A stretch of 37,128 bases of DNA from Verrucomicrobiota bacterium (lineage in GTDB: Bacteria > Verrucomicrobiota > Verrucomicrobiia > Limisphaerales > JADLHS01), in contig JANXWY010000195.1 of the NCBI GenBank assembly GCA_025350905.1, positions 1-37,128 of the forward strand, written 5' to 3'. This document shows, piece after piece, positions 9,122 through 16,640 of this stretch. How positions within the stretch are numbered: the stretch's first letter is position 1; each line of letters opens with the position of its first letter. The notes under the pieces are model-generated. The model had not been told where the DNA came from and made no database searches. It worked only from the letters and a program-made list of their open reading frames with translations. The translations under genes and the position numbers were made by a program.

Positions 9122-9178
9122 GGCCGCAAGTCTAGCCCGCCGCAGGGCCAAAACGCAAGCGGGGGAATTTCGGTGGCT

Positions 9179-9344
9179 GTGACCGGAAGTGGTGGTCAAA
9201 CTGGGTGGTAGGAGTGTTCGCGCTGCGAACACTCCGCCCGCGTAGAGCGGGCGGAATGGGCGGTGACTCGGGCGTGCCGCTGGACGCGGCGCGACGACTC
9301 GCAGCGCGAGCCGTTCTACCACACTGACCGCCACTTCCGGTCGC
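9179..9344. repeat. Long inverted-repeat (MITE/REP-like) intergenic element
   Basis: The outer arms, 9179-9230 and 9298-9344, are imperfect inverted repeats of about 47-52 bases; both, read inward, run GACCGGAAGTGG, GTGGTAG and CGCGCTGCGA. Nested inside are two perfect hairpins: 10-base arms at 9211-9220 and 9226-9235, and 9-base arms at 9233-9241 and 9247-9255. The right arm holds a third small hairpin (9298-9310). The right half matches bases 1-56 of the window. It lies between the stop codon of the phosphoesterase gene and the start of the 51-residue membrane protein, both on the minus strand. There is no coding capacity and no clear target-site duplication. Confidence 0.8.
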
Positions 9345-9380
9345 ATCCAATTCAGATTGCGTTGCGCCGCGGGCCATCAA

Positions 9381-14918: not shown

Positions 14919-16640
14919 ATGTTACCGATACGCCAAAGGCTTTTCTTTCTGCCGCTGTGCTGCTGCCTGACGGCGGGAGTGTGGCCGCTGCGCGCGTTCG
15001 CCGCCGACCAACCGCAGTGGGGCGAGGCGTGGTCGCGCAACATGGTTTCGACGGAGCGAGGATTGCCGGAAGCGTTCGATCCCAAGTCTGGAAAAAACAT
15101 CAAATGGACGGCGAAGCTTGGCACGCAGGCCCATTCCACACCAATCGTCGCGGGCGGGCGCATCTACATCGGTACGAATAACGGCGAACCGCGCGATCCC
15201 AAGCATCAGGGCGATCGCGGCGTGTTCATGTGTTTCGACGAAAAGACCGGTCACTTGCTCTGGCAACTCGTCGTGCCGAAGCGCGACGAAGATGCCTTCA
15301 TGGATTGGCCCAACATGGGCATGTCTTCGACCGCCACCGTGGAGGATGAGCGCGTTTATCTCGTGGACAATCGTGGCGCCGTGCTTTGCCTCGACGCGCA
15401 CGGACTGGCGAACGGCAACGACGGTCCCTTTCGCGACGAAAGCGCGTACATGACGCCGCCGTCGACCGCCGGATCACCGCCTCGACAGGTGATCGGGGCC
15501 GAGACCCGGCCGGAAGTACTGCATCCGCCCGCCGATGGAAGATTGCTGCAACCCGGCCCGCTTGACGCCGACATCCTCTGGAAGTTTGATCTAGTGGCCG
15601 AGGCGGGCATCTGGCCGCACGACGCGGCCCATAGTTCGATCCTCATCCACGGCGATTATCTTTACCTGAACACGGCCAACGGCGTGGACAACACGCACAA
15701 ACGCATCCGCGCCCCCGACGCTCCCAGCTTGATCGTGCTCGATAAACGCACGGGCCGACTCGTGGCGCGCGACGACGAACACATCGCCCCGAATGTATTC
15801 CACAACACCTGGGCGTCACCTTCGTTGGGTGAAGTCCAGGGCCGCCCGCTCATTTTTTTCTGCGGCGGGAACGGCGTGGTGTACGCCTTTGAACCTGTCC
15901 GTCGTAGCAGCCGAGGTAACGAGGCTCACTCTTCCAAATCCGACAGCCGGCGTCCCCAAGCCAAAGTTGATCAGAGCCTCCTGACGTCGGCTGCTACCTC
16001 AGCCGACGAGGTGCTCAAGCTGGGAAAAGTTTTTCAATTCGACTTTGACCCGACCGCGCCGAAAACCGACGTGCACAAGTACAGCACGAATCGTCGGGAA
16101 AGTCCGAGCAGCATTTATGGCATGCCGGTATTCCGGCAAAACCGCCTTTACGTGGCCGGCGGCGGCGACCTCTGGTGGGGCAAGAACGAGGCGTGGCTCA
16201 AGTGCATTGATGTGATGGCCCTCACCCGGCGTGACGGCCACCTTCTCCCATCCGATGGGAGAGGGCCAGGAGGTGAGGGTTTGGTGTGGTCGTATCCATT
16301 GGAAAAGCACGTCATGGCCACCCCGGCGGCGGAGGATGACTTGGTGTTCATGGCTGACTGTGGGCGCACGTTTCATTGTGTGAATGCAAATACCGGCCAG
16401 CGGCACTGGACGCACGAAATCAAGGGCGAAGCCTGGGCGTCGCCATATGTAGCTGATGGCAAAGTTTACCTCGGCACCCGCAGCGGAAGTTTTTATGTGT
16501 TCGCCGCGAGCCGGGAGAAGAAAGTCCTCGCGGAACTTGAACTCGGCAACCCGATCAGCGCCACCGCCACGGCAGCGAACGGCGTGCTCTATGTTGCCAC
16601 GATGACGGACCTGTACGCCGTGCAAAAACAGAGCGAATAG
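14919..16640 (+). CDS. Exported PQQ-type beta-propeller protein with two in-frame repeat insertions
   Basis: A 573-residue protein. The ATG at 14919 opens a signal peptide (MLPIRQRLFFLPLCCCL, cleavage after A-F-A-A). The mature chain is a PQQ/BamB-like propeller with repeated blades such as G-T-Q-A-H-S-T-P-I-V-A-G-G-R-I-Y-I-G-T, G-V-F-M-C-F-D-E-K-T-G-H-L-L-W, E-R-V-Y-L-V-D-N-R-G and G-K-V-Y-L-G-T-R-S-G-S-F-Y-V-F. It may bind a cofactor or act as a periplasmic scaffold; no catalytic residues are evident. Two stretches break the propeller pattern: about residues 329-360 (Ser/Arg/Ala-rich, encoded by 15904-15997) and about 434-454 (Gly/Arg/Pro-rich, encoded by 16219-16279). Each coincides exactly with a DNA inverted repeat and leaves the frame intact. 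Removing them would give about 520 residues. It is followed by the giant metzincin on the same strand. Confidence 0.85.
   Translation: MLPIRQRLFFLPLCCCLTAGVWPLRAFAADQPQWGEAWSRNMVSTERGLPEAFDPKSGKNIKWTAKLGTQAHSTPIVAGGRIYIGTNNGEPRDPKHQGDRGVFMCFDEKTGHLLWQLVVPKRDEDAFMDWPNMGMSSTATVEDERVYLVDNRGAVLCLDAHGLANGNDGPFRDESAYMTPPSTAGSPPRQVIGAETRPEVLHPPADGRLLQPGPLDADILWKFDLVAEAGIWPHDAAHSSILIHGDYLYLNTANGVDNTHKRIRAPDAPSLIVLDKRTGRLVARDDEHIAPNVFHNTWASPSLGEVQGRPLIFFCGGNGVVYAFEPVRRSSRGNEAHSSKSDSRRPQAKVDQSLLTSAATSADEVLKLGKVFQFDFDPTAPKTDVHKYSTNRRESPSSIYGMPVFRQNRLYVAGGGDLWWGKNEAWLKCIDVMALTRRDGHLLPSDGRGPGGEGLVWSYPLEKHVMATPAAEDDLVFMADCGRTFHCVNANTGQRHWTHEIKGEAWASPYVADGKVYLGTRSGSFYVFAASREKKVLAELELGNPISATATAANGVLYVATMTDLYAVQKQSE
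15904..15997. repeat. Palindromic element inserted in frame within a coding sequence (first)
   Basis: The left arm 15904-15927 (GTAGCAGCCGAGGTAACGAG and four more bases) pairs with the right arm 15974-15997; the arms match at 21 of 24 positions. The spacer is 46 bases. Translated in the host frame it gives a Ser/Arg-rich, hydrophilic peptide with no stop codon, placed between two propeller blades. The arm sequence resembles a dispersed repeat I associate with verrucomicrobial genomes, but I cannot verify copy number here. Confidence 0.8.
16219..16279. repeat. Palindromic element inserted in frame within the same coding sequence (second)
   Basis: The outer arms CCCTCACC (16219-16226) and GGTGAGGG (16272-16279) and the inner arms TTCTCCCATC and GATGGGAGAG form an imperfect palindrome of 61 bases around 16251. 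It is unrelated in sequence to the element at 15904-15997. Read in frame it encodes a peptide rich in Gly, Arg and Pro between I-D-V-M-A and L-V-W-S-Y-P-L. Similar CCCTCACC...CTCTCCC...GGGTGAGGG palindromes usually occur between genes. Confidence 0.78.

Follow-up and report, generated by a model that had tools for sequence, protein, structure and literature searches.

How did a long inverted repeat come to lie inside the coding sequence of a beta-propeller gene in a Verrucomicrobiota bacterium, and does it belong to the gene or to a repeat family that has entered it? A total of 37,128 nucleotides (the window) were analysed, and the features around the repeat are collected in Table 1. The original prediction of a 94-bp inverted repeat with 24-base arms and three mismatches, wholly inside the gene, was confirmed at 15904–15997, where 21 of the 24 arm positions are paired (88%) across the 46 intervening nucleotides. 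Arms of 24 nt with up to three mismatches within 150 nt occur at two places in the window, the other being 9174–9349, and ten dinucleotide shuffles of the window gave zero inverted repeats of that quality; a chance origin was rejected. At 9174–9349 lies a large compound palindrome, whose outer arms of 25 nt (88%) enclose inner arms of 46 nt (72%); it contains GGTAGGAGTGTTCGC and is probably another dispersed element.

Table 1 Features of the beta-propeller gene and its palindromes
Feature	Positions	Strand	Remarks
Host gene, secreted PQQ/BamB-like beta-propeller protein, 573 aa	14919..16640	+	Pfam PQQ_2 E=1.7e-21; PDB relatives are PQQ propellers and BamB
Probable REP dimer, head-to-head, GTAG outside	15904..15997	+	In frame; encodes residues 329-360 (RSSRGNEAHSSKSDSRRPQAKVDQSLLTSAAT); empty in orthologues
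Left arm GTAGCAGCCGAGGTAACGAGGCTC, body type GAGGTAACGA	15904..15927	+	
Spacer, 46 bp	15928..15973	+	Varies among copies
Right arm GTAGCAGCCGACGTCAGGAGGCTC, body type GACGTCAGGA	15974..15997	Read on -	
Second palindrome, unrelated, dispersed, CTCACCC..CATCCGATGGG..GGTGAGG	16221..16278	+	In frame, about residues 435-454
Family arm form, also written GTAGCAGCCGA			

The propeller gene and its two palindromes

The host gene opens with a stretch that, judged by eye, resembles a signal peptide. The claim that the repeat keeps the frame stands insofar as the 573-codon reading frame is open throughout; 94 bp is, however, no multiple of three, and the net gain relative to the empty site of G004, a member of the same genus (..PVGAPPPAGEVLKLEKV), is 29 residues (87 bp). 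An 87-bp gain from a 94-bp element would mean that a few bases of the old propeller loop were lost, and we count this difference against the insertion model. The expectation that some 31 residues would be missing elsewhere was borne out by the alignment of orthologues, most of which lack them. Two relatives carry other forms at this site, namely a collapsed 28-bp remnant (GTAGCCTCCGAGGTAACGAGGCGGCTAC) in G001, also of the same genus, and a 70-bp dimer with an altered stem in G008, which belongs to another genus.

A further palindrome (16221–16278), overlooked in the original prediction, lies in frame in the same gene and stands in place of an ..ATKTGDITTN.. turn. It occupies the same codons in G004, G006, G010, G011 and G036 and is missing in G001, G008, G025 and G056, which are interspersed with carriers on the gene tree, so that repeated gains or allele exchange are needed. 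Both inserts sit at the 'D..TG' turn position of other blades (e.g., FMCFDEKTGHLLW and CIDATKTGDITTNGLVWSY); judged from the sequence, they are predicted to lengthen equivalent turns of different blades, the second in a later blade. Palindromes of the form CTCACCC...GGTGAGG occur in many bacteria. There are 48 matches to the family in the host genome, and about 17 of 26 readable copies are in frame. We found no named family for them, and no paper that calls them protein-invading, in a literature search aimed elsewhere. Other in-frame members lie in a Dus-like protein (L134) and in a protein kinase, where the insert falls in the activation loop (L127); an HsdM-type methylase reading frame (L148, G000:C63) seemingly contains three repeat-derived stretches, a REP dimer together with the CTCACCC-like peptides PGSHPSPSGRRDGDEG and SPRKRGEGQGEG.

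A dispersed arm family in the host genome

Based on the evidence below, the 94-bp stretch is very probably one copy of a dispersed GTAG-tagged REP in dimer (REPIN-like) form that was inserted and is translated. The host genome is a draft of 6.27 Mb in 489 contigs, probably assembled from a metagenome. A search with the 94-bp element, which the original prediction had proposed as its check, showed that the arms do recur: blastn returned 117 pieces, and the 14-mer GTAGCAGCCGABGT had 88 exact matches versus one for the reversed control. A census drawn from genome stretches fetched around the matches yielded 139 arms, of which 31 stand alone and the others pair up as 54 head-to-head dimers whose GTAG ends face outwards; this is the high copy number, dispersal and mixture of single and paired units that characterise GTAG-tagged REPs. 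Nearly every one of the 139 arms carries GTAG (or the variants GTGG and GCAG) at its outer end. The arm, GTAGCAGCCGACGTGAGGAGGCTC, occurs in two body types, GACGTGAGGA and GAGGTAACGA, and with stem variants, and the dimer spacers, mostly 20–50 bp, differ from copy to copy.

The arm stem is short (4–5 bp, AGCC/GGCT), with pairing modestly above the shuffle mean. Some stems carry compensatory changes (GAGAC/GTCTC, CCGCC/GGCGG and GAGTC/GACTC), a modest covariation that is suggestive only. No constant target duplication was present in the dimer flanks examined, which showed only a weak TC|GTAG...CTAC|GA preference. Heptamer arrays (AAATCCG, TCAACCC and ACTCCGC) were seen in spacers of REP dimers (e.g., L153 and L186) as well as alone in protein loops (L376, L378 and L380).

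In-frame copies in unrelated genes

Two procedures were used to place the 54 host dimers relative to genes. Requiring a reading frame of 150 aa or more that extends 25 aa or more to either side of the dimer and shows coding GC periodicity puts 30 of them inside genes. A codon model that scores the flanks and disregards the element itself assigns the two flanks to a single open coding frame for 24/54, a stop in 4/54, and flanks on the same strand in differing frames for 10, which may be gene boundaries; the remainder have flanks on different strands, one-sided coding signal or positions at contig ends. Among random 94-bp windows from the same stretches, 1570 of 2400 were flanked by a single coding frame, and dimers are thus not strongly excluded from genes. 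A dimer length of 1 mod 3 is more frequent among intragenic copies (22/30) than among the others (10/24; Fisher p=0.027), which fits selection on frame. The arm itself is stop-free in two of its three sense phases, reading VAADVRRL and xSSRREEA.

The affected genes are unrelated to each other, as are those that receive in-frame insertions of Rickettsia palindromic elements. Many of the host genes are confirmed by Pfam. The insert falls within a single Pfam envelope in N6_Mtase (HsdM-type), SNF2, Exonuc_VII_L (XseA, the exonuclease VII large subunit) and HATPase_c (a hybrid kinase), and other insert-bearing genes have it between pieces of one Pfam family. Dimers were also found in genes for MutY, Hsp70, AcrB (two inserts), HrpB, a U32 peptidase, an FtsX permease and Vsr, and a RecB-like nuclease gene holds three elements; the names HrpB, MutY, HsdM and RecB-like are our reading of the domains. 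From frame, codon usage and orthology we infer that the inserts are translated.

Distribution across the phylum

The arm pattern was detected in 51 of 96 relatives, with none in the reversed control, and in three of 239 genomes sampled from the rest of the phylum. Copy numbers reach about 200 in G048 and G331. A scan of GTDB genomes returned at least 116 stretches, whose titles almost all read Verrucomicrobia, Limisphaerales or Pedosphaera, and 26 of 95 dimers among the GTDB matches listed lie in frame inside genes according to the codon model. The family is order-wide, its named matches belonging mostly to Limisphaerales/Pedosphaera (Verrucomicrobia subdivision 3). The suggestion of a protein-invading repeat family in Verrucomicrobia is upheld, except that it is not the first of the phylum, which was reported from Opitutus terrae (PMC3733652). 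Exact arms were also noted in GTDB records titled as Akkermansia muciniphila and Klebsiella pneumoniae MAGs (L227, L286 and L237), titles that are probably wrong.

Same loops, different occupants

Empty sites exist among orthologues of the propeller, XseA and HrpB genes, and the occupied sites do not always hold the same repeat. The XseA loop that follows LLNxF carries the dimer family of the host in two genomes, the host itself and G001. Elsewhere it holds other GTAG or GGAG palindromes (G009, G034, G036 and G049) or heptamer arrays (G008 and G033), and in many genomes it is short. After the LxxYL motif of HrpB, five genomes (the host, G001, G008, G011 and MAG locus L251) carry the host family and four are empty; G006 and G009 have a GTAGGACAGGC palindrome there, G002, G004 and G010 have heptamer arrays, and G007 has a CTCACCC-like palindrome. 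It is just these two genomes, G006 and G009, that are rich in the GTAGGACAGGC repeat (72 and 69 copies); the host has 34, and G008 and G036 have none. One place in a UvrD-like gene holds a CTCACCC element in the host versus a REP dimer in MAG locus L286. These comparisons indicate that, at the XseA, HrpB and propeller loops, the site persists while the element apparently turns over.

Copies that share a site can be compared with the coding sequence around them. Between the HrpB genes of the host and L251, 46 of 48 arm positions are identical, versus 66% of the flanks and 42% of fourfold sites (P=9e-7); the corresponding values are 45/48 versus 65% flank identity at the second RecB-like site (P=3e-6) and 44/48 versus 71% in the FtsX permease (P=5e-4). 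Synonymous arm positions are conserved too in same-site copies, and selection on the peptide alone is thus no explanation. The spacers of such copies are usually unalignable, even at the third RecB-like site with its 88% identical flanks. In XseA, the host and G001 have arms identical at 45/48 versus 83%, and the spacer can be aligned, a pair that fits plain inheritance. The same-site copies may owe their likeness either to fresh insertion into a tolerant loop or to homogenisation with other copies.

Origin of the inserts and alternative explanations

The steps that we propose would run as follows. Copies would travel as DNA hairpins, assisted by a candidate Y1 (HUH) transposase, and land both inside and outside genes; since two of the arm's three sense phases lack stops, any copy whose net length keeps the frame could survive, and purifying selection would clear the rest, so that copies remain in tolerant surface loops, which in the propeller would be the turn after the 'D..TG' motif of a blade. 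A tolerant loop could then be used again: copies at the same codons would later be replaced or homogenised, their arms staying alike while spacers change, and unrelated repeats or heptamer arrays may take the same loop in other species. Sixteen Y1_Tnp (PF01797) reading frames of several sizes are present in the host genome. None of the 16 has an arm of the family beside it; the nearest arm is about 1 kb away, and the dimer at roughly that distance from one of them (C407) lies within a Vsr-like reading frame. None of 30 Y1_Tnp loci in eight repeat-rich relatives has an arm close by either, with one arm at about 0.5 kb. A RAYT gene flanked by the same REP, the hallmark of REPIN/RAYT systems, was not found in these genomes, which as drafts may miss one. 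Some of the 16 host Y1_Tnp reading frames are flanked by other short GTAG or GGAG hairpins (Y1_Tnp loci include L069, L070, L071 and L073). In a wider version of the proposal, certain loops would be stable landing pads at which unrelated palindromes and heptamer arrays have been swapped repeatedly, partly by recombination between arms, with the repeats as a supply of loop cassettes; we advance this tentatively, at somewhat under even confidence.

The main competing account of the same-site copies is that each descends from one old insertion by inheritance, its arms appearing young through gene conversion among dispersed copies; it challenges only the re-insertion part of our explanation, and we regard it as quite possible, if a little short of probable. 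It accounts for the HrpB copies, which share a 22-bp spacer and codon position in five genomes, and for the alignable XseA spacers of the host and G001, and same-site arm identities (up to 46–47/48) are within the spread seen among unrelated copies of a single genome (median 42/48, 5–95% 37–46). It is harder to reconcile with the unrelated repeat families and heptamers that occupy the same loop in sister genomes, with the unrelated spacers at the third RecB-like site, or with the scattered occupancy of the second propeller site.

Three other readings concern the nature of the inserts as a whole. That the elements are a regulatory device (an mRNA hairpin, attenuator, or supercoiling or nuclease site) with translation as a side effect is unlikely, albeit worth weighing: in some same-site pairs conservation of the arm DNA goes further than the peptide it encodes, and known REPs are believed to act as RNA or DNA elements (PMC3733652), but the target genes are functionally unrelated, the position within the gene varies, and the stems are weak and of varying type. 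An artefact of assembly or binning, by which repeats were stitched into genes, might be suspected in a draft of 489 contigs, as assemblies break at repeats; we rejected it as highly improbable given in-frame inserts at the same codons in independent assemblies (XseA in G001, HrpB in G001 and L251, FtsX in L252 and the RecB-like gene in L294/L406), with diverged flanks and intact frames. A repeat native to the gene, either a loop whose code is palindromic by chance or an RNA structure for its own regulation, would agree with an in-frame repeat in an otherwise intact gene, yet some 100 copies across the genome, both within unrelated genes and in intergenic stretches, and its absence from most orthologues leave this reading with hardly any probability, and it was ruled out. 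Insertion of a dispersed REP dimer is the reading that we retain.

Comparison with known systems

The hosts of these inserts are well-known enzymes with many sequenced orthologues, which makes it testable whether inserts are tolerated or feed new loop sequence, in a bacterial order outside Rickettsia where repetitive DNA seems to enter proteins on a large scale. There is also a warning for annotation, namely that 20–30 residues in many Verrucomicrobial proteins (xSSRREEA...SLLTSAAT, VAADVRRL... or ..SPSDGER..) are repeat-derived.

Intragenic dimers of GTAG-tagged REPs were described by Di Nocera et al. in 2013, the largest number coming from the Verrucomicrobium Opitutus terrae (PMC3733652). 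The present family shares with those REPs the GTAG at one end, apparently the palindromic body, the high copy number and head-to-head dimers with spacers of 20–100 bp, and with the O. terrae dimers, from the same phylum, their frequent presence in reading frames, where they encode 20–30 aa, sometimes twice per gene, with uvrA and helicases among the targets (PMC3733652). It differs in host order and in its stem of 4–5 bp rather than mostly 6–9 bp, the consensus being compared by description only, and the search here turned up no tyrosine transposase with this repeat on its flanks. The family also shares the unit of two inverted REPs and a spacer with REPINs (Bertels and Rainey 2011, PMC3116915), which are tied to a RAYT gene (PMC3733652), a link not found for the host family.

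In-frame palindromic repeats are known from Rickettsia (PMC10969869), and the likeness to these elements that was originally proposed is supported by the genome-wide arms and by the residues absent from most orthologues: both are palindromic repeats in frame in unrelated genes that add a peptide. The Rickettsia elements are, however, about 150 bp long with one conserved peptide per family (PMC10969869), and come from a different phylum, and the R. conorii repeats covered in PMC3733652 are CGTC-tagged rather than GTAG-tagged; tag and distribution, set apart by description, argue against membership in the Rickettsia sequence family. Different REPs near the same recB site were described in two Xanthomonas species, the only such case in that study (PMC3733652), whereas here unrelated repeats share several loops across species. 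The kind of element is thus already known, from the in-frame REP dimers of O. terrae and the Rickettsia elements; what appears to be new, in the literature searched, is this order-wide family with its large intragenic share, a further repeat family that has entered the same propeller gene, and loops that unrelated repeats have occupied in turn.
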